A stretch of 23,346 bases of DNA from a virus, in the IMG/VR virus record IMGVR_UViG_3300027865_000222, positions 1-23,346 of that record. One strand, written 5' to 3'. Under the pieces are notes generated by a model. The model was not told where the DNA came from. It saw only the letters and a list, made by a program, of their open reading frames with translations, and did no database searches. Made by a program: the position numbers and the translations under genes. Positions 8,943 through 23,346 of this stretch are shown here, piece after piece. The number at the start of each line of letters is the position of its first letter. Position 1 is the stretch's first letter.

Positions 8943-9119
8943 ATGCCACGATATGAATACAAGTGCGAAAATGAGGAATGTACACAAGATACGTATACGG
9001 AATCACTCCCTATGAAGGACTACAAGAAAAAGACCCATTGTCCAAAGTGTAAGAAGGTGGGAGTCAAGCAGTTCGGTTGTAATATAGACAAGTTAGCCGC
9101 CTCTAAGTGGAGTGTATAA
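8943..9119 (+). CDS. Small FmdB-like zinc-ribbon protein
   Basis: 58 residues, beginning MPRYEYKCENEEC, the opening typical of FmdB-family zinc ribbons (MPxYEYxC). C8, C13, C33 and C36 (HCPKCKK) form the predicted zinc site, and C46 is extra. GAGGA lies about seven bases before the ATG. The start is two bases after the previous stop, and the stop TAA is followed directly by the next ATG. FmdB-like proteins are small putative regulators; in phages their role is not known. Confidence 0.8.
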   Translation: MPRYEYKCENEECTQDTYTESLPMKDYKKKTHCPKCKKVGVKQFGCNIDKLAASKWSV

Positions 9120-9815
9120 ATGATCATTACAACTACAGAGCTTAAGGCTTACACTGTATGTCCTATGTTGTGTAAGTTTGGAACAAAGCCTGCTGTAGAT
9201 CCACTGTTGATTGCCCTCAAGCGAGCCTTAACTTACTTATATTCTTTTGAAATGAGCAACAATAAGAAGGTGCTAGAGGGAAGTATGGTTAACAAGTGGG
9301 ATAAGATATGGAGACAAGAGGCTGGAGATCTAGGGGAAGATGAGCTGGCAGAAAGAGCTGTAGAAGGTTGGTTAATCATTAAGAAATTTATGGACAAGGT
9401 GTATGGGTCCGACAAGAGAGTTCCGCGTATTGTTAATCTATCTCATAAGGCAAGTGTAGAAAAGATCCACTTTCAGACTGTTTTTGATGTGGTTCTACAT
9501 GGTCCAAAGGAAGAAGTCACACTGCTAGAGTTTGGAACGGTAAGAGATACTCACAACTTACGATGGCAACTAGAGACAGACATAGAAGCCAAGGCTAAAT
9601 TATACCTATTAAAACGATCACTTGGTCGGTCTAATTGTACGTTGATACGATACAATCTGAATAAGAATCTGAACAAGACATCGATCAAAGCGACCCCAAC
9701 ATTTATGAAAGATACTGAAGAAACCATATTAGGTATCGTAGATAATATTGAAGAAGAGTTGTTCTACCCTAGTCCAACATGTAAGTGCCCGCACCCAGAG
9801 AGATGTAAATCATGA
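9120..9815 (+). CDS. Degenerate Cas4/RecB-like protein, probably without catalytic lysine
   Basis: 231 residues with the overall plan of Cas4-like nucleases: an N-terminal Tyr/Cys motif (YTVCPMLCKF, C14 and C18) and a C-terminal Cys cluster (C221-x-C223-x5-C229 in TCKCPHPERC) that could hold an iron-sulphur cluster. In the core, FDVV (D123) and LLEFGTVRD (E137) occupy the PD-(D/E)XK positions, but the expected E-x-K reads E-F-G, so the catalytic Lys is missing unless another Lys takes its place. It may be a DNA-binding or structural partner of the active Cas4-like protein at 3213-4127. GGAG lies seven bases before the ATG. The assignment to the fold is by motif order only. Confidence 0.65.
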   Translation: MIITTTELKAYTVCPMLCKFGTKPAVDPLLIALKRALTYLYSFEMSNNKKVLEGSMVNKWDKIWRQEAGDLGEDELAERAVEGWLIIKKFMDKVYGSDKRVPRIVNLSHKASVEKIHFQTVFDVVLHGPKEEVTLLEFGTVRDTHNLRWQLETDIEAKAKLYLLKRSLGRSNCTLIRYNLNKNLNKTSIKATPTFMKDTEETILGIVDNIEEELFYPSPTCKCPHPERCKS

Positions 9816-10483
9816 GTGTACAAATAGGATATCGAATAGATGGCCAAGATCCTCCTGCCATATGTGTAAGACAGGAGCTGCCGGATAATAGAGAAAGAAC
9901 AGAACAGTGTGATATTCACCAGACAATAGGTCCATTTACAGCTGGCACACACACCTTGGAGCTAATGGCATTGGTAGATCATGGTGAAACGGTTATTATT
10001 AATGAGAATAGCATGATTCAAATAGACAGATTTAGTCAACGCAATAGAGTGGCACATGAGGATCACCTAACTGGGGATTACCAAACTAATATGACCACAT
10101 GGCACCCTATAGATATGTCTATTACGTTTGACACCCTAGATGGTGAATCTGTTATATTTAATGCTTCCCTCACGTTAAACCAAAGACTGTATAGTGGTAA
10201 TATTTCAGATGGGATGGCCCATATTAACATAGCGGTTTGTGAAGACCTACCTGTAAGCTCAATGATTATGACATCAGGGGAAGTACTTTCAATTAAAAAT
10301 CAAGATGGTAATGAGGTATTCTCAATAGACCACAATGGTGATGTCCATATAAAAGGTAAGATTATATATGGTATGTTAGATCAGTCAGAACCACAACGTA
10401 TTATACATATTAAAACAAATAAAGAATTAATAAATCGATTTGACGATTTACTAATAGGAGACGAAGATGAATCTAAAAATTAA
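9812..10483 (+). CDS. Small tail-fibre-module-like protein located in the replication operon
   Basis: 223 residues, joined to the previous gene by an ATGA overlap. Residues 3 to about 75 match the second half of the fibre B module: QIGYRIDG against YIGYRIDSG, IGPFTAGTHTLEL against IGPFTAGQHTVKL, and IQIDRFSQ against MQLIRHKS. Residues 80-150 match the start of the C module: HEDHLTGDYQTNMTTWHPID against TEDILTSNFVPTTHTTWYDT, then FDTLDGESV against FNAIEGERV. After that it diverges into a segment (NGDVHIKGKIIYG) of a kind seen in phage structural proteins, and an acidic end. The giant fibres with these modules lie on the opposite strand from 14494. It could be a minor virion protein, a remnant of a duplication, or a regulator of fibre assembly; only the similarity is directly visible. 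Confidence 0.7.
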   Translation: MSVQIGYRIDGQDPPAICVRQELPDNRERTEQCDIHQTIGPFTAGTHTLELMALVDHGETVIINENSMIQIDRFSQRNRVAHEDHLTGDYQTNMTTWHPIDMSITFDTLDGESVIFNASLTLNQRLYSGNISDGMAHINIAVCEDLPVSSMIMTSGEVLSIKNQDGNEVFSIDHNGDVHIKGKIIYGMLDQSEPQRIIHIKTNKELINRFDDLLIGDEDESKN

Positions 10484-10640
10484 AGACAAACAAGGTAAGG
10501 TTAAGGCCGTACTTAGGGACGAAGATATTGAACCTACGTTTGACAAAGAGATCCTCGAAGAAGAAGAAGAGAAGGAAGCCGAACTAAAGAAGAAGAAAGA
10601 TATCAAGGACGAAGGAGAACTAGATGAATCAGTGGAATAA
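10467..10640 (+). CDS. Small acidic/charged protein
   Basis: 57 residues beginning MNLKIKDKQGKVKAVLRDED. AGGAG lies six bases upstream of the ATG, a strong ribosome site. The second half is almost entirely Glu, Lys and Asp (LEEEEEKEAELKKKK), probably one helix. It overlaps the fibre-like gene by 17 bases and the next gene by 17 bases, as expected in a compact phage operon. Function unknown; small charged proteins of this kind in phages often bind host proteins, which is a general guess. Confidence 0.7.
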   Translation: MNLKIKDKQGKVKAVLRDEDIEPTFDKEILEEEEEKEAELKKKKDIKDEGELDESVE

Positions 10641-10977
10641 TTTTGAGCGAACACAGAATGCGGCACTGAAGGCAGATGTAAACAAAGAGATCTATGAGTG
10701 TGAATGTGGCTGTACATGGTTTGAATCAGTCCGTGTTAACCAGTTTATCAGTGAGCAGCAGATTGTTATTGGGCAGAGTGTACCTCCTCTCACTCAAGGT
10801 GATTTTGTAATGTTACGATGTGCTCGTTGTAGTATTATGATAGAACCCAGGGTGATGCTTAACAATCCCACAAGACTCGAAGAAAAAAAGTATGCCGAAG
10901 CCATTAGTGATATTACAGAACCTATCAGCGAAGGGATAGCTACGGAAGATGCGGTTCAAGATACTGAACAAAAATAG
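10624..10977 (+). CDS. Hypothetical zinc-ribbon protein
   Basis: 117 residues, with AAGGAG about seven bases before the ATG. A CECGC cluster (C26, C28, C30) and a CARC pair (C66, C69) suggest a zinc-binding site bridging about 40 residues. Between them is a beta-like stretch (QQIVIGQSVPPLTQGDFVML). The C-terminus is acidic. It overlaps both neighbours, so it belongs to the unit starting at 6851. The role is unknown; it is the fourth small protein in the window with a likely zinc site. Confidence 0.72.
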   Translation: MNQWNNFERTQNAALKADVNKEIYECECGCTWFESVRVNQFISEQQIVIGQSVPPLTQGDFVMLRCARCSIMIEPRVMLNNPTRLEEKKYAEAISDITEPISEGIATEDAVQDTEQK

Positions 10978-12420: not shown

Positions 12421-12837
12421 ATGGACACCTTATGGTATAGACAAAAGAATAAACCTGTGTTAAGATTAACTTATAGGTCGGAACCACTCACTAAGTCTAA
12501 TCAGACATTCTTTGGTCGAGGCAGGGCCTACATACCTAAGAAAGTTCAAGACTACGAGAAGGAACTTCAAAAAGCTGCCACAGCGGCAGTAAAGAAAGCA
12601 AGGTTAAAGAGACTTAAGGGGTTTATTATAATGGAAATTTGGTATTATGTGGGTTGTAAAAGACGCAAAGATTTACCGAACCTACCTAAGACCACTACGG
12701 ATGCTCTTAATGAGACTGTGTACCATGATGACTTCCAGATACATGATATGGTTATACATCGCAGATTAGATAGAGAAGATCCACGAGTAGAAATTACTCT
12801 ATGGGAAACGAGAGACGCAGAGTGGGACGAAAATTAG
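12421..12837 (+). CDS. rusA: RusA-like Holliday junction resolvase
   Basis: 138 residues. Resolves four-way DNA junctions formed in recombination and replication. Family features in order: a KSNQTFFGRGRAYIPKKV segment, the RRKDLPNLPKTTTDALN motif with D84 and D94, and YHDDFQIHDM with D103 and D104, the acidic residues that bind metal. It ends with a PRVEITLWE strand as in other phage RusA proteins. The start is one base after the lysozyme stop. In phages RusA resolves branches before packaging; here it pairs logically with the Cas4-like nucleases and the primase-helicase. Confidence 0.92.
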   Translation: MDTLWYRQKNKPVLRLTYRSEPLTKSNQTFFGRGRAYIPKKVQDYEKELQKAATAAVKKARLKRLKGFIIMEIWYYVGCKRRKDLPNLPKTTTDALNETVYHDDFQIHDMVIHRRLDREDPRVEITLWETRDAEWDEN

Positions 12838-13616
12838 ATCATCTATATAAAACGACAAAGTTACCAGTTCTTGAGCTTAAAGAAGTAGACGCACTGGTTA
12901 ACACTTACCTCAATGGCAAAGATGAGGATCGAGAGGAAGCCCTTTCAACCCTTCTTAAGGCCTGGCACAAATACTTTATGAAATATGTTGAGATCTTATG
13001 TGGTTCCAAGATAGACGTACGCAACAGAGATACAAAAGAGTTTTTGCAGTTGTTCTTATCTACCGAAGATCGCAATCCATACAGCGTGGTAAGTATTCGG
13101 AACTATGTTAAGACAATATGCAACAACTTAGAACCCGATGATATATATAATCAATTGTGTATGATTTTTATGGAATTGTTGAATGAGTACCAGCCGCAAG
13201 AGGGTATTAATTTTACCCGATATCTAACGAAATTGTTTAGATGGAGCGTCAAATCATGGCTGATGGAAATGGCATCCGATCCATTGTCTGGAGTGTTCAC
13301 CAACATTGAGATTGTAGAAGATATTTTAGAACGCAACACTGGTCAAGTACAACCGACCGCAAATGATACCATTGTTAACGATGGATTAGGCCTAGAGCTA
13401 GACTTAAAATGGGTCTTCCAAGAGGGGGAGGGGATGTTTTCTAACCTTTCTTCTTATGAGCGGTATCTGATTTACTTAAACTATAAAGAAGAAATGAGTA
13501 TTAGGGACATGGCTAAAAAATTTGGTAGGTCCAAGAATACTATTCATACGCACCTTAAGAGTGCGTTAGACAAATTAAGGAGAATTCATAATGAGCAACA
13601 TGAAAGGGATAACTAA
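12801..13616 (+). CDS. Phage sigma factor (sigma-70 family, ECF-like size)
   Basis: 271 residues. Residues 113-155 resemble region 2 (DDIYNQLCMIFMELLNEYQP, then INFTRYLTKLFRWSVKSW), which binds core polymerase and melts the -10 element. Residues 215-263 resemble region 4 with a clear helix-turn-helix (EEMSIRDMAKKFGRSKNTIH), which binds the -35 element. Residues 20-105 are an extra N-terminal helical part. It overlaps RusA by 37 bases and has a weak ribosome site. Phage sigma factors usually redirect host RNA polymerase to middle or late promoters; the minus-strand fibre genes are obvious candidates, though their promoter is outside the window. Confidence 0.8.
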   Translation: MGNERRRVGRKLDHLYKTTKLPVLELKEVDALVNTYLNGKDEDREEALSTLLKAWHKYFMKYVEILCGSKIDVRNRDTKEFLQLFLSTEDRNPYSVVSIRNYVKTICNNLEPDDIYNQLCMIFMELLNEYQPQEGINFTRYLTKLFRWSVKSWLMEMASDPLSGVFTNIEIVEDILERNTGQVQPTANDTIVNDGLGLELDLKWVFQEGEGMFSNLSSYERYLIYLNYKEEMSIRDMAKKFGRSKNTIHTHLKSALDKLRRIHNEQHERDN

Positions 13617-14052
13617 GACTCAGGCTGACATTGTTTCGCAAGAAGCACCGATAGCTAAGAGCCTAACCAGTGAAGTTATGGAGGATCTGCCTGGTCTTCA
13701 AGGTGCATTAAAGTCAACAGAAGAGCAAAAGAAAGCAATGTTTATGACGGTATTAAGAAGCCGTCCATTCGTAAGTAAGTTTAACTTTAAGCTTGGTGAA
13801 TTTAAAGGAACCAAAACTGAGCTTGTTAACATCGGAGGTATTGCAGACTTGCACCTTCGTTCTTATGAAGAAATTGCTGCTATCTTTGTTGCTGCAACTA
13901 AGGCCAAGAGAGACTTCGTAGGATTCACATATGAAATTAGAGAAGATAAGACTGGTCAGGTTCAGGGGCGATTAGAAGTAGAATTTGGAGCCAAAGTTAC
14001 AGAGGCTCTTAAAGGATTTAAGCCCTCTATTACATTAGAATACATGAACTAG
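13591..14052 (+). CDS. Hypothetical protein, possibly structural or DNA-associated
   Basis: 153 residues beginning MSNMKGITKTQADIVSQEAP, with AAGGAG nine bases upstream; overlaps the sigma gene by 26 bases. A helical N-terminal third is followed by beta-like strands (VSKFNFKLGEFKGTKTELV, then RDFVGFTYEIRED) and ends with ITLEYMN. There are no Cys, signal or membrane features. Codons look well adapted (many GCT, GTT and AAG), suggesting high expression. Not recognised; the strong ribosome site fits an abundant product. Confidence 0.72.
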   Translation: MSNMKGITKTQADIVSQEAPIAKSLTSEVMEDLPGLQGALKSTEEQKKAMFMTVLRSRPFVSKFNFKLGEFKGTKTELVNIGGIADLHLRSYEEIAAIFVAATKAKRDFVGFTYEIREDKTGQVQGRLEVEFGAKVTEALKGFKPSITLEYMN

Positions 14053-14055
14053 ACT

Positions 14056-14403
14056 ATGATCTACGGCATTACAAACCCACCGTACTATGACAGAGCCCTG
14101 ATGATTGATATAGATGGAACTGTTATTAATCATGATATACCTGGGGCCATACCAGGGGCGGTGGAATGGGTTAACAAAAAGTATGATGAAGGTTACGGTA
14201 TATTCTTCTTTACCTCTCGCTTAGCGGTAGATAAAGAAATTACAGAACAGATGCTTAAGAAGCATGGATTTAAATATCACGATGTGATATATGGTAAACC
14301 CTATTCAGGCTCAGTAGTACATATTGATGACAGGAAATTCAAGTCTCTTCATGTACCACGGAATTTGGGAGTTACTGCAGTAAAAGATGATGATTTAAAA
14401 TAA
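14056..14403 (+). CDS. HAD-superfamily phosphatase-like protein
   Basis: 115 residues. HAD motif I is LMIDIDGTV (nucleophile D18, D20), motif II is FFTSR (T53/S54), a Lys lies in GKPYSG (K81), and motif IV is HIDDRKF (D91, D92). The short length, with almost no cap domain, suits small phage phosphatases acting on nucleotides or nucleic-acid ends. It starts three bases after the previous gene and is the last plus-strand gene before the terminator. The substrate is not predictable; a nucleotide or 3'-phosphate role is a guess from the neighbourhood. Confidence 0.85.
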   Translation: MIYGITNPPYYDRALMIDIDGTVINHDIPGAIPGAVEWVNKKYDEGYGIFFFTSRLAVDKEITEQMLKKHGFKYHDVIYGKPYSGSVVHIDDRKFKSLHVPRNLGVTAVKDDDLK

Positions 14404-14424
14404 CTTTATACGTGTAAAACAAAT

Positions 14425-14468
14425 AAAGCCCTAGGCGTCCATAACGGATACCTAGGGCTTTTCTTTTT
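14425..14468 (+). terminator. Intrinsic terminator, probably bidirectional
   Basis: An 11-bp perfect stem, AAAGCCCTAGG (14425-14435) with CCTAGGGCTTT (14451-14461), may be extended inside by GTCC/GGAT. It is followed by a T-rich run TTCTTTTT. On the minus strand the same hairpin is followed by TTTATTTGTTTT, so it can also stop transcripts coming from the convergent fibre genes. It lies between the ends of the two convergent blocks. Confidence 0.88.
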
Positions 14469-14470
14469 GT

Positions 14471-14499
14471 GGCTATGTTTTATAGCCTATGTTTTATAG
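14471..14499. repeat. Tandem 13-base repeat with a small hairpin
   Basis: CTATGTTTTATAG occurs at 14473-14485 and again at 14487-14499. The first copy with its flanks forms GGCTAT-GTTTT-ATAGCC (14471-14487), a 6-bp stem. The second copy includes the last codons of the minus-strand fibre gene (stop codon at 14494-14496). The hairpin may assist termination of minus-strand transcripts or be a short slippage duplication. Confidence 0.7.
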
Positions 14500-17400
14500 T
14501 ACTGGTACGCTAAAGTTTGCCCAAATTTTATCTCCAGAAGCAAAGGTCAAGGGGATAGTATTGGATATAATATTTAGTCCTGGACTACCCGCTATTCCGC
14601 CCAGTGGCAGTACAGAGGTTGTATCATTATAGCTACATGTACCTGGGGCATATGCAGTTACTCCGACATCTAAGACACGTACCTCACCAAAATTACCCTC
14701 ACTAACGGTGGTGGATAATAACTTAGATGTATCTATAGTATATCCCCCTGGTAAATTGATTGTTAATGTTGCTGCTGTGGGGGCTCCAGTACACGCAACT
14801 TGAACTCGACATTCTAAGGTATCCCCAATCTTCCTATAGAACCCTGTATAAGTGGCATTGCTAACCCAAGACCCTGTTGGTACAAATGAGGTCCAGCTCT
14901 CAGCGGCTGGCAGTGTTCCTCCAATAAGGTTAATAGACACTGTGTTTCTGTTGGCAAGAGCTGTTAGATCTGTGTCGCTACCCCCATTAATATATATCCT
15001 GACTTGTAGGGTATCTCCTGCTGCCATCTCTATAATAGTTGTTCCACCAGCCCCGGTATTTGTGGCTGTGGCGGTACCTTTAACATTAAGATCTAATGAA
15101 GTATGTTCAGCACCATTCTTATATACAACCAACCATGTAAACCCGGCCTCTCCCCAAGCAAGAACATCCATAACTACGTTTGAAGATATTCTATAGTATC
15201 CAGCGGTGGGAGCAGTAAACACCCAACTACCACCAGTAGTAACGGCATCATGTGTATCAATCTCTTTTGTGGGGAAGTCAAGAATAGTTAGCAAGTTGTT
15301 GGTGATAGTGGTGCCAGCACCATTGGTATATTTAGCAACAACTATTTCTCGTTCTTGGGATGTAAATCTAGTGACTTGCATTTTACTGTTGACATAGAAG
15401 CCGTAAGACCCGCCCTTAGCCAAAATTTTTGGTGATGTACTGCCGGATATCCTGCTAGCTTTGATCTTAATAGTATGCGAGCCAGCTGATAGGGCTGGAG
15501 TCATGAGAGTAAAACCAACCAGTGCAACTGCTGTCGATTCTCTATTTAAATCATACCCCACTACTATTGGTGTGCTGGAGTCAACCTGATATCCATATAC
15601 AATACCATTATCTGTGGCATCAGGCACAAACCATGAGCCCTCAAAGGTAACCTGTACACGTTCACCTTCCACTGTATTAACTGTAGCGCTTAGACCTGTT
15701 ACATCTGTCATACCACCACCCTCTGCAGCTACAAACGTATCTGTAATAGTGTGGTCAGATGCTAGAACTGTTTCTTCTACTTCTAATCCATTGATGCCCG
15801 AACCTTGAGCCAAGATAGTACATGTCCATGGTACAGAGGTATGTACAAGCATTGTTCCGGTGCCATCAATCCTCTTCCATTGTGGACGTATGGTGTGTTC
15901 ACCAGCTGCTAGATCTACAAGTAAGCTAACAGTATTATTGTGGTAAACACTTGTATCGCCAACACTAGAAACACCCATAGATTGAACTGTGCCATCATCA
16001 ATAACGGCTCCTGCCTCAAGAACTGTATAGGCGGTTCCTGCATAAGTAGATACTGTGAACTGGATTAAATGTGGACCACTAACTGGTGTTGTGAATGTCT
16101 GATTGGGCATACCTGTAATATCTACAAAGCTAGTAGAGGTACTGGTGGTAGTGGCTACAAATGAAAGCTTTTCCATATACCCACCCAGTGCTGCGTTTGG
16201 AAATGTTACTTTTGCTTCTGTTCCATCTGCCTCTACAAGTGCACCAACGAAATTAAGAGCACTGGGTTTTTCAACGATCTCTGTACCCTCGTCTTTAATA
16301 GGAATAAGACCACCGCGATGTTGGGTGGCTTGGAATCTCGCTATTGTATCTGTACCATTACTTCGAACGCTCCAACTAGAACTAGCAGTACATGACGCTC
16401 TGAGTTTAATCGTATGTGAACCTGCTGTGACAAAATTTATAGCTTGGGCAAAACTAGCATTATATATGCTAAATAATGAGTCTCCAGAATCATTAATAAG
16501 ATATACTTTGTCGTCTGTGCCGCCATCTACCTGTAAAAAGAAAAAGAACCCATCTAATCCACCAGAAGAACTAATATACTGAGCTACACCTGAAAAATTA
16601 AACATCACTTCTTCACCCTCTATTGTATTAATAGTAACTTCAAGCCCTGTGTCGGCAACTGTAGCAGAATTAATAGTGGTACTAGATGACCCAAGGTCAT
16701 CTTTAGTTACAATAGTGCCAGCGCCAATGCCAAGAGATTTAAAACGAGTAACTTGGAATGCATTATCTTTATAGTTATTTGCGACGGCTCCCAAAAATAC
16801 GGCATCACCTACACCACTTACGGCAACTAGCTTAATCGTATGTTGACCAGCTGAAAGCGGCGCTGTCATTGTTGTGAAATCACATGGGAAACCCGTACCT
16901 GCAGTTGTATCCCCATTGTGATATCCAGTCTCTACTGGGGTATCACTATCAACTTGATAACCGAACACAACATCATAAGTGGCAGGTATACTAACACTAC
17001 CATTATAAGATACTTGTACGCGTTCACCCTCTAGAGTATTGACCACACACTGTACAGTAGAAACCTGTGCCATATTACTACCCGGTTGGTCAATATATGC
17101 TGCCGTAACAGTGAAATCTATATCTAGTCTATCCTCGATTACTTCTAGACCGTTAATGCCAGCTCCTTGAGCTTGAATATCTAGTGTCCACCCATAGGTC
17201 GCATCAAATGTGGGGGTTCCTGATCCAGAACTACGTTTCCATTGGGGTCGGATCGTGTGCTCACCAGCTGTAAGGTCAATATTATTTATGAAGGTTGATC
17301 TATCATGATTAGAGGTAGCATTATGATAAAATGCACCTAACGAAACAATAATAGAATCATCAATAAGAAGTTGGAATCCTGCTCCTGCTCCGGAAGTAGC

Positions 17401-17622
17401 GGCATAAAAATCTGCAGTAAATATAAAGTTGTGAGGTCCAGAGACTGGCGTTGTAAAGGTTTGATTTGGCATACCCGCCACATCAACAAAAGTTGCACTA
17501 GTAGTACTGGTTGGTGATGCATCAAATGCGAGGTGTTCTAGATAGCCACCTACCCCACCATTAAGACCTTCTAATTCTGTCAGTACTTTTGCATCGGTTA
17601 AATTATAATTGGCATCAGACAT
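14494..17622 (-). CDS. Modular tail fibre-like protein with C1q-like and terminal beta domains
   Basis: 1042 residues. A short leader (1-24) is followed by modules A (25-160), B (161-300), C (301-434), a 45-residue linker (435-479), A (480-614) and B (615-752). Each module is a beta-sandwich-like unit with a GxHTI motif near its end (AGEHTIRPQW, AGQHTIKLVA, AGSHTIKLRA). Residues about 771-900 look like a C1q/TNF-type jelly roll (GGSWVFTAPTAGYYRISSNV), and 905-1042 form another domain seen in phage fibres (YRKIGDTLECRV, then TINLPGGYTID). The ATG is preceded by AAGGAG, which overlaps the stop of the upstream gene. The last domains are the likely receptor-contacting tip. Assignment as a fibre is by architecture, not by a named homologue. 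Confidence 0.82.
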   Translation of the reverse strand: MSDANYNLTDAKVLTELEGLNGGVGGYLEHLAFDASPTSTTSATFVDVAGMPNQTFTTPVSGPHNFIFTADFYAATSGAGAGFQLLIDDSIIVSLGAFYHNATSNHDRSTFINNIDLTAGEHTIRPQWKRSSGSGTPTFDATYGWTLDIQAQGAGINGLEVIEDRLDIDFTVTAAYIDQPGSNMAQVSTVQCVVNTLEGERVQVSYNGSVSIPATYDVVFGYQVDSDTPVETGYHNGDTTAGTGFPCDFTTMTAPLSAGQHTIKLVAVSGVGDAVFLGAVANNYKDNAFQVTRFKSLGIGAGTIVTKDDLGSSSTTINSATVADTGLEVTINTIEGEEVMFNFSGVAQYISSSGGLDGFFFFLQVDGGTDDKVYLINDSGDSLFSIYNASFAQAINFVTAGSHTIKLRASCTASSSWSVRSNGTDTIARFQATQHRGGLIPIKDEGTEIVEKPSALNFVGALVEADGTEAKVTFPNAALGGYMEKLSFVATTTSTSTSFVDITGMPNQTFTTPVSGPHLIQFTVSTYAGTAYTVLEAGAVIDDGTVQSMGVSSVGDTSVYHNNTVSLLVDLAAGEHTIRPQWKRIDGTGTMLVHTSVPWTCTILAQGSGINGLEVEETVLASDHTITDTFVAAEGGGMTDVTGLSATVNTVEGERVQVTFEGSWFVPDATDNGIVYGYQVDSSTPIVVGYDLNRESTAVALVGFTLMTPALSAGSHTIKIKASRISGSTSPKILAKGGSYGFYVNSKMQVTRFTSQEREIVVAKYTNGAGTTITNNLLTILDFPTKEIDTHDAVTTGGSWVFTAPTAGYYRISSNVVMDVLAWGEAGFTWLVVYKNGAEHTSLDLNVKGTATATNTGAGGTTIIEMAAGDTLQVRIYINGGSDTDLTALANRNTVSINLIGGTLPAAESWTSFVPTGSWVSNATYTGFYRKIGDTLECRVQVACTGAPTAATLTINLPGGYTIDTSKLLSTTVSEGNFGEVRVLDVGVTAYAPGTCSYNDTTSVLPLGGIAGSPGLNIISNTIPLTFASGDKIWANFSVPVL
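15367..16185 (-). repeat. Fibre repeat unit VI (A-B only)
   Basis: A (GGYMEKLSFVATT) and B (VEGERVQVTFEGSW, ending MQVTRFTSQ) are present, then the array switches to the C1q-like tip instead of a C module. Confidence 0.83.
16173..16323 (-). repeat. Conserved 151-base linker, copy 1
   Basis: Encodes the end of C (HRGGLIPIKDEG), KPSALNFVGALVEADGTEAK and the first residues of A. Matches copies at 19419-19569 and 22350-22500 without gaps; the differences are largely at third codon positions. Confidence 0.88.
16186..17550 (-). repeat. Fibre repeat unit V (A-B-C-linker) in the downstream fibre gene
   Basis: Complete unit of 1365 bases, opening GGYLEHLAF (A), then B with NTLEGERVQVSYNG and C with AGTIVTKDDL, closing with the linker KPSALNFVGALVEADG. 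Confidence 0.85.
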
Positions 17623-17631
17623 AGTCTCTCC

Positions 17632-20600
17632 TTAAATGCTAAACCAGTTGGTTCCATCACTATACAGTCTCATTGAACCGTAGTTTACAGTGATAGGAAG
17701 TGAAGCTGCTCCATCAATGGTTTGGGCTACTTCTGTGGCTATGGTAATATTGCTAGCTGCGGCACCACCAGATTCATCTTTTATGGTAATAATCTTACCA
17801 AGTATTGTGTCCGCTGTTCTTAATGTAATTGTAATACCTGCAGCAGTACACCCTACGATTGTAGACCCATCCGTATTTGTGCTACTTCCTGCTATCTGCC
17901 TAGTAAACTCTGGCGTATTGACATCACCTAGATCGATGTCCTTATCTGGCATAGATACTGTACGTACTGTACTAGTGGTAATGCCGGATGCCTCAAAGGC
18001 TATTTCTTTTGTGTTGTCCCCATTGTCTTGGACTCTAAATGTATCATCAGTGAAATCGGTTCCGCCACCAGGGATAGTAATCAATGCTTTACTGCCCGAT
18101 TGTGTGACTACCACTCCAGAGCCTGCGAAGTTAAGAGCAGATGGTTTATCTACAATATCTACTCCGTCGTCCTGTACTGGAATGAGTCCACCGCGATGCT
18201 GAATGGCTTGTAGTGTTGGAACAAAACCAGCTACATAGTTTGCACCCGATAAATACCAAGTGCCTATAGAATAGGCTGCCTGTACTTTAATTGTATGTTG
18301 ACCCGCTGTGAGAGCAGGTGTTACCCAGGAGTGAGTTAAGCCTTTTCTAGCTTGAGTACCTACATTATTATAGTTATATAAAATTGGAGAATCAGTAGTT
18401 CCGTCAATTTCAAATTTAACCAACATACCTAAAATAGTAGAACCAGTAGGTCGACCAACGCCAGTAAAGACTAAGTGTACCTGTTCATCAGCAATAGTAT
18501 CAATGGTGACCTCTAGACCAGTGTCCATATATGTCGGGCCTGATGTAGAAATAGTGACATCTGTAGCTAGTGTATCTTCTGTGACAATTGTGCCAGCGCC
18601 AATACCAAAGGATTTATATCGAACAACTTGCATCCTTGCGTCAGTGGCTGTGGTATCTGTACCATAAAGTTTTGCTGAACCGGCAGACTGCCCTGCCAAC
18701 AATTTAACGGTATGTTGCCCCGCCGTAAATGGACCAATCATCTTAGTGACATATAACCCTTGTACAGTATTGTTCTGTCGATCTAATTCATAGTGCAGTA
18801 CTACTGTAGGGTCAGCATCAATTTGATAGTGTATAGTAAAATCATCAGTACCAGATGCGCTTAAGTGTAAACTACCTATAAATTTAAGTTCTACATATTC
18901 TCCTTCAAGTGTATTGACATCGACAGACAATCCAGTAATAGCTACTGGAACAGTATTACTTCCTGTTACAGTATACTCAGTAGCGATAGTAGCTTCTTGT
19001 ATTTCGAGACCATTAATACCTGTGCCCTGAGCTGAGACTGTTAGGAAGGTTGGAATATTGGCATTACGTCTTATACCAACAACCGATACCTTTACTTCTA
19101 AATCAACCGTATGTTCACCACTGGCTAAATTAGCAAAGCCCCTGAATGTAGCACGCTCATGTGCCGATGCCGTAGCAGTATACATACGCCACGTATCTGT
19201 ATCACCTATGATTATTTCACTGGCTGTACCTTTATCTATAATAACTCTATAGTAGCCGACACTAGCAGCAGATGTTATATATCCACCAGTCGATAATTCA
19301 AATAGATGTGAACCACTAACTGGGGTAGTAATGGTCTGCTGTGTGGTTCCTGTCATTGTTGCATACGATGTGCTTGTATCGTCATCATTGCCGGATGGAT
19401 ATCTTTCGATAATATTTTCCATATACCCACCAAGCGCCGCGTTTGGAAATGTAACTTTCGCTTCAGTTCCATCTGCCTCGACCTGTGCACCAACAAAATT
19501 AAGTGCTGAAGGTTTTTCGACTATCTCCAGACCATCGTCTTTGATTGGAATTAACCCACCACGATGCTGAGTCGCAGCAATCCAAGAAGGACCACCAAGG
19601 CTACCATCTCTCAAGGTAGGTTGAGCTGAACCAGAAACATAGTACATTCTTAACTTAACAGTATGTTCACCTGCTGATAAAGCTGGAGTTACCCATGGTA
19701 ATGCACTCCATTTACGCTGACTACTTGTGCTATCATTGTGATACATGAAGGGTGAGTCGGTGACACCATCAAGTTGGTATCTTACCTGATAAAGCAGAGA
19801 ACCAGAACCTGTACTTACATGTGCGGCACCATCCATAGTTACTCTTTCACCTTCTATAGCATTAAAGGTAACTTCTAGACCTGTGTCATACCATGTAGTG
19901 TGGGTAGTGGGTACAAAGTTAGAGGTAAGTATATCTTCTGTAATAATTGTGCCAGCACCAATGCCAAAGGATTTATGACGAATCAATTGCATCTTACAAC
20001 TATGGTTGTTTGCTGTATCACCACGGACGATAGGATCTCCCCCACCAGAACTAGAGGCGGTTAAATCAATTGTATGTTGTCCGGCTGAAAGCGGATCTGT
20101 AAATACAGAAAAACTTATAGTGCCATCACTGACATTGGCGTTCCACGCATCATTAACTATAATAGGAGTTCCACTATCAATTCTATAACCAATATATATA
20201 TCTGTGCTACTTGTTAAATACGCGACACCATTAAATTTAATTTCTATCTGTTCATTCTCTAAAGTATTAATAGTAGCAGATAAATCTGTAATTGGTTCCA
20301 TCCCTACACCGGGTACATCTGCGTAAACAGCTGTTACGGTAAAATCTGCACCACGTGTAGCTTCTATAACCTCTAACCCATTGATACCTGAACCTTGGGC
20401 CTGAATAACCATTGGCCAACTCGTACCAGCAACAAGAACGGAAGCGCCTGCACTGTTCGCTTTCCATTGTGGTCTAATAGTATGAGAACCCGCTGCCAGA
20501 TCAACAACAGCATATATTGTTCTTCGATACCATTCACCCGTGTTGTTGAGATTTATTGTGCCCATTGATTGAGCAGCCCCATCATCAACAACTATACCAA

Positions 20601-23346
20601 TCTCTGCCGTAGCGGTAATCTCTGTACTTAGATAAAGAGAAGGAGAGAGAAGGATTAAATGTGGTCCACTCACTGGGGTGGTAATCGTTTGATTAACTGC
20701 ACTAGTAATATCTACAAATGTGGTGCTTGTTGTATTGCCCGATGTCCCAAATGTAAGCTTTTCAACATATCCACCTAGTGCACCGTTCGGTTGTTGTACA
20801 AATTCTAACGCATCTTCAGTATCATTAACTCTTACGATTTTTCCTGCATCATCAGTAAAGTCGGCTGGTGTATCAGTTAAACTTAGAAAGTCTCCACCGC
20901 CACCAGGAATCGTTACTAAGACCTCATCTGTAACTGGTTCTGTGACTGTGACACCTGCTCCAGCGAAATTGAATTTAGTAACAGCTGTAGTAAGGGGACT
21001 TCCCTCGTCGTCTACTTCAATATCACTACCGCCGCCACCGCTAGGGATAGTGACAGTAGCTACGCCGCCTACATCTGTAACTGTTGCACCTGCTCCAACA
21101 AAATTAATTGCTGAAGGTGCGGTTAAAATATTTGAGCCCTCTTCCTGGATTGGAATCTCTATACCACCACCAGGCACCATCCAACCACGAACAAGAACAT
21201 TAATAGCTGTAAATGTCGCACCACTGTCTACTTTATATTGAACAAATCTATCAGCATCGCACTCAACAATGGCAGTGGTTCTGCGAACAACGGAATCTGC
21301 TGGACAAGTTAGTCCATCTCCATCATATGCATTTGTTTGTCCTTTTGTCCTAAAATTAACATTACCAGCGCCGGAGGAAGACGCAATAAGCAATCTAATA
21401 AAGACTCGCTTACTAGCCGCTTCTGCTGGCACAATTCCCGAAAGATCTAAATCATGCCATGCAGTGTCTTTTGTAAAATCTCCTTCAGTAAAATCATACC
21501 CGGCTGGATCTCCTCGATCTACATATTGTTCTGCTGCACCTACATTAAGGGTTTTATAGCGAACAATCTGCATGGTTGTGTTGGCAGTAAGAGCTGTTCC
21601 TTTAATAATAGGATCAGCTGCACCACCAGAACTTGATGCTGTTATTCTAATAGTGTGTGAGCCATTTGATAGTGGACCTATCATCTTTCTGAAACCGATA
21701 GCGTCGTTTTTCTCATCCCAAAGATTGACAGTTACAATAGGGGTACCCGCATCTATATCATAACCCAGTATAAGGTCTTGGGCGCTGGCCGAAGGAAGCT
21801 CAACAACACCATTAAAGTTTAGTTCTACATATTCATTTTCTAGAGTATTAACTGTAAGTGTTAGCCCTGTAATTGGAGCCATGCCTGCACCTGGTACTGC
21901 AGAATATGCCTGTACTACAGTAAAGTCACTTGCAAGTGCAACCTCTTGAACCTCTAAACCGTTGATACCTGAGCCTTGAGCTGAGATGATAAGTGGGAAT
22001 GGACCCCCTGTAACACGGAAGCTACCCGAACCACTAGTTCTACGTACCCTAAGTCTTACGGTGTGTTCGCCTGCAGGGAGATCAACAATGAGTGATAATG
22101 TTGCGTCTCCTGTACCATCACTCGTTTCTCTGACTAAGGATGATTTAAATTCATAGTCCGTTGTGTCATCAATTCTAACAGCGAAAGCACCCACAGCTTG
22201 AGCCGTAGCTGCACTAGATCGAGTAAGAAGAGTAAATAAATGAGGGCCACTTACTGGAGTGGTAAAGGTTGTATCTATAGTACCGACTAAGTCGATCAGT
22301 GTAGCACTTGTATAGTTTGTACTCGGAGTAGGAGTAAAGTCAATTTGCTCCATATATCCACCCAGAGCTGCATTCGGGAAGGTTACCTTCGCTTCTGTTC
22401 CATCTGCCTCGACCAGGGCACCTACAAAATTAAGAGCTGAAGGCTTATCTACTATCTCAAGATCATTATTCTTAACGGGTATTAATCCACCACGAAATTG
22501 TGTAACTTTTAGACCTGGCTCCCCAGCATCTACACCAAGTGAATCTTGGACATCCCACAGTGTGGTGTCACTAGTATAATACCTCAGCTTGATTGTGTGT
22601 GTGCCAGCTGTAGCAATAGTGATAGGTATAGCAAATGAACCATTTTGATTGTAGGCAGTAGTATAAGCTTTAAGAGCCCTGTGTGTTACAATCTCTGCAT
22701 CACTATCTACTTTAATGGATAGCTTAATGTGTACGCCTGCCGTACCACTCTCTCGTCTATATTCACCGTTCCATGATACTAATACAATTTCGTCATCAAA
22801 AGCAGTAGTAATATCAACTGTCGGACCCACATCACTCCACACACCAGAAGAACTTTGGTTGGCAATATTGGCACCAACAGCATCCTCTGTGACAATAGTA
22901 CCTGTACCAATACCAAAGGACTTGGTTCTAATAACCTGGAATAAACAATCTGTCCCATTAGATAAGCCACCCAATCCAAGTAGACTAGGATCTGTCGCAG
23001 TAGTAGAGGACGCTACTAATTTAATGGTGTGTTGTCCTGCAGATAGTGGAGTAGTCATAGTCGTGAAGCTAACATTATTTGCTTCAGTGGTCTGGTTGGC
23101 TGAATAACCACCAGGTATGGCCGTATCACTATCTACTTGATAACCTATCATCAAATCGTTAGCCGCACTACCAGCAGAGGTTCTATATGATCCTACAAAA
23201 GAAACTTGTACTCGTTCTCCCTCTAGTGTATTAACTGTCAGGCTCATATCTGGAACAGCTGCCATATTGCCACCAGGTTGATCAATATATGCCTGAGTAA
23301 CTGTATAGTCGGTGGTCCGTCTAGCCTCTATAACTTCAAGACCATT
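17632..23346 (-). CDS. Giant modular tail fibre-like protein; 5' end outside the window
   Basis: The frame is open to the right edge: 27 residues upstream of the ATG at 23265 (starting NGLEVIEARR) continue a B module, so that ATG is internal and at least 1904 residues lie in the window. Numbering from 23265: B to 120, C 121-256, linker 257-301, A 302-438, B 439-576, a different C-like unit 577-697, three linkers 698-829, A 830-966, B 967-1102, C 1103-1233, linker 1234-1278, A 1279-1420, B 1421-1555, C 1556-1689, linker 1690-1735. It ends with a domain common in phage virion proteins (ITIKDESGGAAASNITI, then LYSDGTNWFSI). The linkers resemble the short FLSLTDTPADF and PSALNFVGA units of phage fibres. 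It is presumably a long fibre shaft encoded with late genes. Confidence 0.85.
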   Translation of the reverse strand, partial: NGLEVIEARRTTDYTVTQAYIDQPGGNMAAVPDMSLTVNTLEGERVQVSFVGSYRTSAGSAANDLMIGYQVDSDTAIPGGYSANQTTEANNVSFTTMTTPLSAGQHTIKLVASSTTATDPSLLGLGGLSNGTDCLFQVIRTKSFGIGTGTIVTEDAVGANIANQSSSGVWSDVGPTVDITTAFDDEIVLVSWNGEYRRESGTAGVHIKLSIKVDSDAEIVTHRALKAYTTAYNQNGSFAIPITIATAGTHTIKLRYYTSDTTLWDVQDSLGVDAGEPGLKVTQFRGGLIPVKNNDLEIVDKPSALNFVGALVEADGTEAKVTFPNAALGGYMEQIDFTPTPSTNYTSATLIDLVGTIDTTFTTPVSGPHLFTLLTRSSAATAQAVGAFAVRIDDTTDYEFKSSLVRETSDGTGDATLSLIVDLPAGEHTVRLRVRRTSGSGSFRVTGGPFPLIISAQGSGINGLEVQEVALASDFTVVQAYSAVPGAGMAPITGLTLTVNTLENEYVELNFNGVVELPSASAQDLILGYDIDAGTPIVTVNLWDEKNDAIGFRKMIGPLSNGSHTIRITASSSGGAADPIIKGTALTANTTMQIVRYKTLNVGAAEQYVDRGDPAGYDFTEGDFTKDTAWHDLDLSGIVPAEAASKRVFIRLLIASSSGAGNVNFRTKGQTNAYDGDGLTCPADSVVRRTTAIVECDADRFVQYKVDSGATFTAINVLVRGWMVPGGGIEIPIQEEGSNILTAPSAINFVGAGATVTDVGGVATVTIPSGGGGSDIEVDDEGSPLTTAVTKFNFAGAGVTVTEPVTDEVLVTIPGGGGDFLSLTDTPADFTDDAGKIVRVNDTEDALEFVQQPNGALGGYVEKLTFGTSGNTTSTTFVDITSAVNQTITTPVSGPHLILLSPSLYLSTEITATAEIGIVVDDGAAQSMGTINLNNTGEWYRRTIYAVVDLAAGSHTIRPQWKANSAGASVLVAGTSWPMVIQAQGSGINGLEVIEATRGADFTVTAVYADVPGVGMEPITDLSATINTLENEQIEIKFNGVAYLTSSTDIYIGYRIDSGTPIIVNDAWNANVSDGTISFSVFTDPLSAGQHTIDLTASSSGGGDPIVRGDTANNHSCKMQLIRHKSFGIGAGTIITEDILTSNFVPTTHTTWYDTGLEVTFNAIEGERVTMDGAAHVSTGSGSLLYQVRYQLDGVTDSPFMYHNDSTSSQRKWSALPWVTPALSAGEHTVKLRMYYVSGSAQPTLRDGSLGGPSWIAATQHRGGLIPIKDDGLEIVEKPSALNFVGAQVEADGTEAKVTFPNAALGGYMENIIERYPSGNDDDTSTSYATMTGTTQQTITTPVSGSHLFELSTGGYITSAASVGYYRVIIDKGTASEIIIGDTDTWRMYTATASAHERATFRGFANLASGEHTVDLEVKVSVVGIRRNANIPTFLTVSAQGTGINGLEIQEATIATEYTVTGSNTVPVAITGLSVDVNTLEGEYVELKFIGSLHLSASGTDDFTIHYQIDADPTVVLHYELDRQNNTVQGLYVTKMIGPFTAGQHTVKLLAGQSAGSAKLYGTDTTATDARMQVVRYKSFGIGAGTIVTEDTLATDVTISTSGPTYMDTGLEVTIDTIADEQVHLVFTGVGRPTGSTILGMLVKFEIDGTTDSPILYNYNNVGTQARKGLTHSWVTPALTAGQHTIKVQAAYSIGTWYLSGANYVAGFVPTLQAIQHRGGLIPVQDDGVDIVDKPSALNFAGSGVVVTQSGSKALITIPGGGTDFTDDTFRVQDNGDNTKEIAFEASGITTSTVRTVSMPDKDIDLGDVNTPEFTRQIAGSSTNTDGSTIVGCTAAGITITLRTADTILGKIITIKDESGGAAASNITIATEVAQTIDGAASLPITVNYGSMRLYSDGTNWFSI
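18061..19431 (-). repeat. Fibre repeat unit IV (A-B-C-linker)
   Basis: Complete unit of 1371 bases. A opens YMENIIERYP, B EIQEATIATE, C AGTIVTEDTL; the linker has a different second half (VVVTQSGSKALITIPGGG) leading into the C-terminal domain of the protein. Confidence 0.85.
19419..19569 (-). repeat. Conserved 151-base linker, copy 2
   Basis: Same length and reading frame as copies 1 and 3, encoding HRGGLIPIKDDG and KPSALNFVGAQVEADGTEAK. A fourth copy at about 18112-18198 matches only over its first 30 residues. Confidence 0.88.
19432..20778 (-). repeat. Fibre repeat unit III (A-B-C-linker)
   Basis: Complete unit of 1347 bases. Modules open with GGYVEKLTFG (A), EATRGADFTV (B) and AGTIITEDIL (C), and end with the linker KPSALNFVGAQ. 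Confidence 0.85.
20779..22362 (-). repeat. Fibre repeat unit II (A-B-variant C-three linkers)
   Basis: A and B are typical, but the C position (21175-21537) holds a different sequence (YVDRGDPAGYDFTEGDF onward) with two Cys, followed by three consecutive linker types: PSAINFVGAG, FNFAGAGVTV and FLSLTDTPADF. This is the longest and most divergent unit. Confidence 0.82.
22350..22500 (-). repeat. Conserved 151-base linker, copy 3
   Basis: Same length as copies 1 and 2, encoding FRGGLIPVKNND and KPSALNFVGALVEADGTEAK, then the start of an A module. Confidence 0.88.
22363..23346 (-). repeat. Fibre repeat unit I (B-C-linker, cut by the edge)
   Basis: Residues ending at the linker FPNAA. B begins outside or at the window edge with NGLEVIEARR; the C unit starts TGTIVTEDAV and ends FRGGLIPV. 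The A module of this unit is outside the window. Confidence 0.85.

Follow-up and report, generated by a model that had tools for sequence, protein, structure and literature searches.

The window (the whole stretch of 23,346 bases that was analysed, a virus record open at both ends) carries two convergent transcription units. The unit on the plus strand runs from a DnaE fragment to position 14403 and comprises, among others, genes for a metallophosphoesterase, a Cas4-like nuclease, a primase-helicase, RusA, a phage lysozyme and a sigma-factor-like protein; its content relates mainly to DNA metabolism. The gene considered here, P0001, belongs to this unit and sits between a putative nuclease gene and a zinc-ribbon-like gene. 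The minus strand encodes two giant modular fibres. The relevant features are as follows.

9120-9815, plus strand: gene coupled to P0001 on its upstream side; no family match; cysteines at both ends
9812-10483, plus strand: P0001, intact open reading frame of 223 amino acids (25 kDa, pI 4.6)
10469-10642, plus strand: small open reading frame of 57 amino acids, read from the sequence, starting MNLKIKDKQGKVKAVL and overlapping the end of P0001
11799-12419, plus strand: lysozyme gene in the P0001 operon
12801-13616, plus strand: sigma-factor-like gene in the P0001 operon
about 14425-14470, no strand assigned: convergent hairpin terminator, AAAGCCCTAGG...CCTAGGGCTTT followed by a T-rich stretch
14494-17622, minus strand: fibre 1, 1042 amino acids, modules A-B-C-A-B and then other domains
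17632-23346, minus strand: fibre 2, at least 1904 amino acids, running off the contig; modules B-C-A-B-x-A-B-C-A-B-C

The P0001 gene and its transcription unit

The start codon of P0001 overlaps the stop codon of the preceding gene (ATGA), which looks Cas4-like by eye. In its own reading frame P0001 has a strong codon signal of +0.11 nats per codon; the remaining five frames give values of −0.22 to −0.29. An intact frame with a frame-specific signal points to a maintained gene and not debris, and we infer that it is under selection. The product is acidic and soluble, and neither a signal peptide nor a membrane segment was found in it (maximum 19-residue hydropathy 1.08). It has no Pfam match at E ≤ 1, its sole PHROG matches are families of unknown function and none of the PADLOC models of anti-phage defence matches it. 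The 57 amino acid frame overlapping its end likewise gave no family match and nothing significant in profile searches; this short acidic product begins with MNLKIKDKQGKVKAVL, which by eye resembles the C-terminal hairpin of P0001 (LSIKNQDGNEVFSI). Further small observations in the same unit concern a zinc-ribbon frame at 8943-9119 (MPRYEYKCENEECTQD...), FmdB-like by eye, and the metallophosphoesterase (1387-2529), which is about 35-41% identical to versions from Bordetella, Stenotrophomonas and Roseobacter phages; that of Stenotrophomonas phage ANB28 carries a large intein-like insertion.

P0001 had been described as lying inside a replication operon. DNA-processing genes do surround it, but because the lysozyme and the sigma-factor-like gene are also present the unit is not purely a replication operon, and early expression of P0001 is therefore no safe assumption. 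That P0001 is on the strand opposite to the fibres and in a separate transcription unit agrees with the strong convergent hairpin terminator between the two: the segment 14395-14500 folds at −36.6 kcal/mol (z = −6.0), although a simple terminator scan did not call the hairpin at 14425-14470. The GC skew switches sign within 14000-15000, at the border of the two units. The distance of about 10 kb first given between P0001 and the fibre modules has to be corrected, since 4.0 kb separates P0001 from the end of the nearest fibre gene and the distance to the B-C modules is 5.8-12.9 kb.

Homology of P0001 to the fibre modules

When P0001 was compared with its own genome by tblastn, the matches were P0001 itself and three stretches of the fibre genes, and nothing else:

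16552-16971, minus strand: fibre match, E = 5e-8
19825-20199, minus strand: fibre match, E = 4e-7
18478-18834, minus strand: fibre match, E = 1.5e-6

The fibres were cut into A, B and C modules and a profile was built from four B-C pairs. P0001 scored 41 bits with this profile, while the best of 2,000 shuffled versions of P0001 scored 11, and among the B-C profile matches listed no other non-fibre reading frame of the window rose above shuffles. Addition of an independent B-C pair, from the contig described below, raised the score of P0001 to 47 bits (best shuffle 8.6). None of 8,256 reading frames from about 40 other phage loci exceeded 7.7 bits with the B-C profile. The profile comparison proposed in the first-pass annotation is thus clearly significant, and the similarity between P0001 and the modules is real; identity is about 27%, without frameshift or stop. 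As to its extent, which had been put at residues 1-155, residues ∼3-125 match firmly but the remainder only weakly, to ∼145. It follows that residues ∼150-223 are not fibre-module sequence.

At the DNA level P0001 and the fibre genes share short matches only, the best being 18 bp in the TAGTHT motif. Among the genes of the plus strand unit, P0001 has the codon usage furthest from that of the operon (z = −3.3), and its usage fits that of the fibres (z = +0.9). We do not read this as a sign of recent transfer, because the signal stems from the non-homologous residues 126-223.

Among GTDB genomes, a single clear relative of the fibre B-C modules turned up, on a 4.5-kb contig of a Marinimicrobiota MAG (DAOUYY010000207.1, 1-4462), where a fibre about 40% identical is followed by structural-looking phage genes and a GIY-YIG-like reading frame; this is probably a phage contig binned with its host. 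The C-terminal domain of fibre 1 (residues 912-1042; 14494-14889) is also shared with the fibre of this contig, as well as with a protein of a spring podovirus (MW202898; 37%) that carries a caprin-2 annotation.

No relative of P0001 itself was confirmed by tblastn in phage and plasmid collections; with its N-terminal part alone, phage tblastn returned E values of 1 or worse, Rhodococcus minor tail proteins among them. The assembly of the Marinimicrobiota contig contained no match. Pattern scanning, which picks up only close relatives, was applied to IMG/VR and GTDB genomes, where entries closest to the window may be missing from the searched set; it likewise yielded no confirmed relative. A search for the lineage via primase, DnaE, metallophosphoesterase or fibre motifs retrieved no syntenic phage. 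In the papers covered by literature searches no equivalent of P0001 is described, an absence that is no proof of novelty.

Register, junction and predicted structure

The homologous part of P0001 is not a complete b1-b8 module in natural strand order. It spans about one module period and is divided as follows.

9818-10051, plus strand: residues 3-80, second half of module B, strands b4-b8 (half-profiles, AF2)
10028-10063, plus strand: equivalent of the B-C junction, RFSQRNRVAHED (alignments)
10043-10186, plus strand: residues 78-125, first half of module C, strands c1-c3 (half-profiles, AF2)
10274-10480, plus strand: residues 155-223, non-module part with a DG-x-x-VFSID-x-NG-x-V hairpin and then a predicted beta-alpha element

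With profiles of second halves, residues 1-80 scored 36.3 bits for B, 11.2 for C and 4.0 for A; none of the 942 scored shuffles reached the B score. With profiles of first halves, residues 73-160 scored 18.0 bits for C, 8.2 for B and −0.1 for A, and the C score was reached by 0 of 953 scored shuffles. Because modules B and C are distantly related to each other (cross-scores of 24-51 bits), the margin for the C half is modest. These half-specific scores uphold the original proposal that P0001 aligns, in order, with the second half of B and then the first half of C. Set against the natural module boundaries in the fibres, a register from b4 to c3 means that P0001 begins and ends mid-module. The shift is no artefact of where the modules were cut, because fibre 1 begins with a complete A module and because module B occurs twice in the fibres with other sequence in place of C after it. 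In the alignments the junction of P0001, RFSQRNRVAHED, lacks four residues relative to that of the fibres, RYKSFGIGAGTIVTED.

The AF2 model of a fibre B-C pair consists of two tandem beta-sandwich (jelly roll) domains (mean pLDDT 71), with tandem CBM22 modules as the best PDB matches. For residues 1-125 of P0001, AF2 predicted 8-10 strands, with block pLDDT values mostly of 85-94 and two blocks at 70-75; the input included module rows, which may lend confidence to these values. Strands were placed at residues 2-9, 16-22, 29-42, 45-55 and 68-75 in the B half and at 78-85, 98-108 and 112-124 in the C half, that is, b4-b8 and then c1-c3, the order expected from the register. Between the strands that flank the junction the gap is six residues in the fibre model and two in P0001, which fits the inter-domain linker of the fibres having become a turn. 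The most likely arrangement is that b4-b8 and c1-c3 together form one circularly permuted jelly roll. The earlier term ‘circularly shifted unit’ therefore holds for the register, on which half-profiles, unit boundaries in the fibres and predicted strand order agree, but closure into a single fold is the part that is inferred. In Foldseek searches, P0001 gave weak matches to the PDB (TM of 0.3 or less) and, among viral models, a tail fibre as top match (E = 8.5e-5, low TM).

Beyond the homologous part, a hairpin-like segment at residues 161-180 (DGNEVFSIDHNGDVHIKG) was predicted with a pLDDT of about 72, and residues 183-223 have low AF2 confidence. This part also gave a weak match of 22 amino acids to a short tail fibre of phage S-PM2 (E = 9). 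The small phage proteins of PHROG 35044, 16927, 34638 and 14313 may share the DG-x-x-VFSID-x-NG hairpin, with E values of 0.01-0.06 only; 19 phage records followed up through families 14313 and 35044 provided no identity for the C-terminal part, and a pattern scan for the hairpin found no match.

Origin and possible role of P0001

Domain shuffling between fibres is a known phenomenon. P0001 is best read as an apparently maintained protein that descends from two adjacent modules, B and C, in the giant fibres of this phage lineage. It keeps strands b4 (module B) through c3 (module C), which amount to a single jelly-roll period in circularly shifted form, with four residues fewer in the B-C linker. 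Most likely the protein would be a permuted jelly roll, then a flexible segment and, at the C-terminus, a short hairpin or helix, and its job would be related to the fibres, either as an accessory virion protein or as an assembly partner docking on fibre modules. Homology and register are established, and the fibre-related role, the conjectural part, we hold at roughly even odds. It is also the likeliest single reading, with about half of the total weight, ahead of co-option, relic, decoy and convergence; on sequence data a minor virion protein, an assembly partner, a decoy and a captured fragment, the options listed in the first-pass annotation, are not separable.

A module fold co-opted for an intracellular task outside the virion, for example binding of a host or replication protein, would have severed the link with the fibres. 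The company of primase-helicase, DnaE, RusA and Cas4-like genes, the acidic, soluble character of a protein with no export signal and a C-terminal part unlike the fibre modules all suit this possibility, which deserves serious weight but is the less probable one: the lysozyme and sigma factor genes mean that the unit is not purely early, and none of the family searches linked P0001 to an intracellular function. Rather unlikely is a captured fibre fragment persisting as a neutral relic. P0001 does begin and stop mid-module, the collections searched held no relatives, and illegitimate recombination between the convergent units could have produced it; yet the intact coding signal disfavours a relic, with 223 open codons and strong frame specificity, as do ATGA coupling to the upstream gene, divergence to about 27% identity without frameshift or stop, the tidy shortening of the linker by four residues and the additional C-terminal part.

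We consider it very unlikely that P0001 is a soluble decoy or superinfection-exclusion protein occupying the host receptor. By homology, a fibre module set free by lysis could bind the same receptor, but with neither signal peptide nor membrane segment P0001 would stay cytoplasmic until lysis, which disfavours a secreted decoy. Least probable of all is an unrelated jelly-roll protein resembling the fibres by chance or through its general fold. Jelly rolls are common in phages and the fold search with P0001 alone was weak; against convergence stand the half-specific scores for B then C, the similarity across the junction and the lack of anything comparable in the 8,256 other reading frames.

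A more specific form of the fibre-related role, which we advance tentatively and regard as improbable as it stands, is that a duplicate of one fibre module left the structural genes in a circularly shifted register and became a dedicated fibre partner, whose half-B/half-C composition would allow it to cap or complement the fibre modules where B meets C during assembly. If so, the phage would build a chaperone or cap from its own fibre. A lone fibre module in shifted register within a non-structural operon would exemplify how a new phage protein can arise by circular permutation and, should P0001 act on the fibres, how a fibre partner can be derived from the fibre itself.

Of the known systems, C1q/caprin-2-type fibre domains touch on this locus through fibre 1, whose C-terminus is matched by the caprin-2-annotated podovirus protein. 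Tandem CBM22-like modules are similar to the fibre B-C model, whereas P0001 has no sequence-family match and the alignment TM scores are low. Fibre chaperones (Tfa/gp38-type, T4 gp57A and that of Pam3) would be analogous in their working if P0001 docks on the fibres, but P0001 has no Pfam or PHROG chaperone match, is itself a homologue of fibre modules and is encoded by a gene that does not adjoin the fibre genes; T4 gp57A also lies apart from the fibre genes. A further comparison is with the A/B/C modules encoded by this phage and by the Marinimicrobiota contig. P0001 departs from them in being a stand-alone single unit of shifted register with a linker four residues shorter, encoded in a separate plus strand operon outside any tandem array in a fibre gene and extended by its own C-terminal part, and resembles them in sequence, in strand pattern and in the order of B then C.
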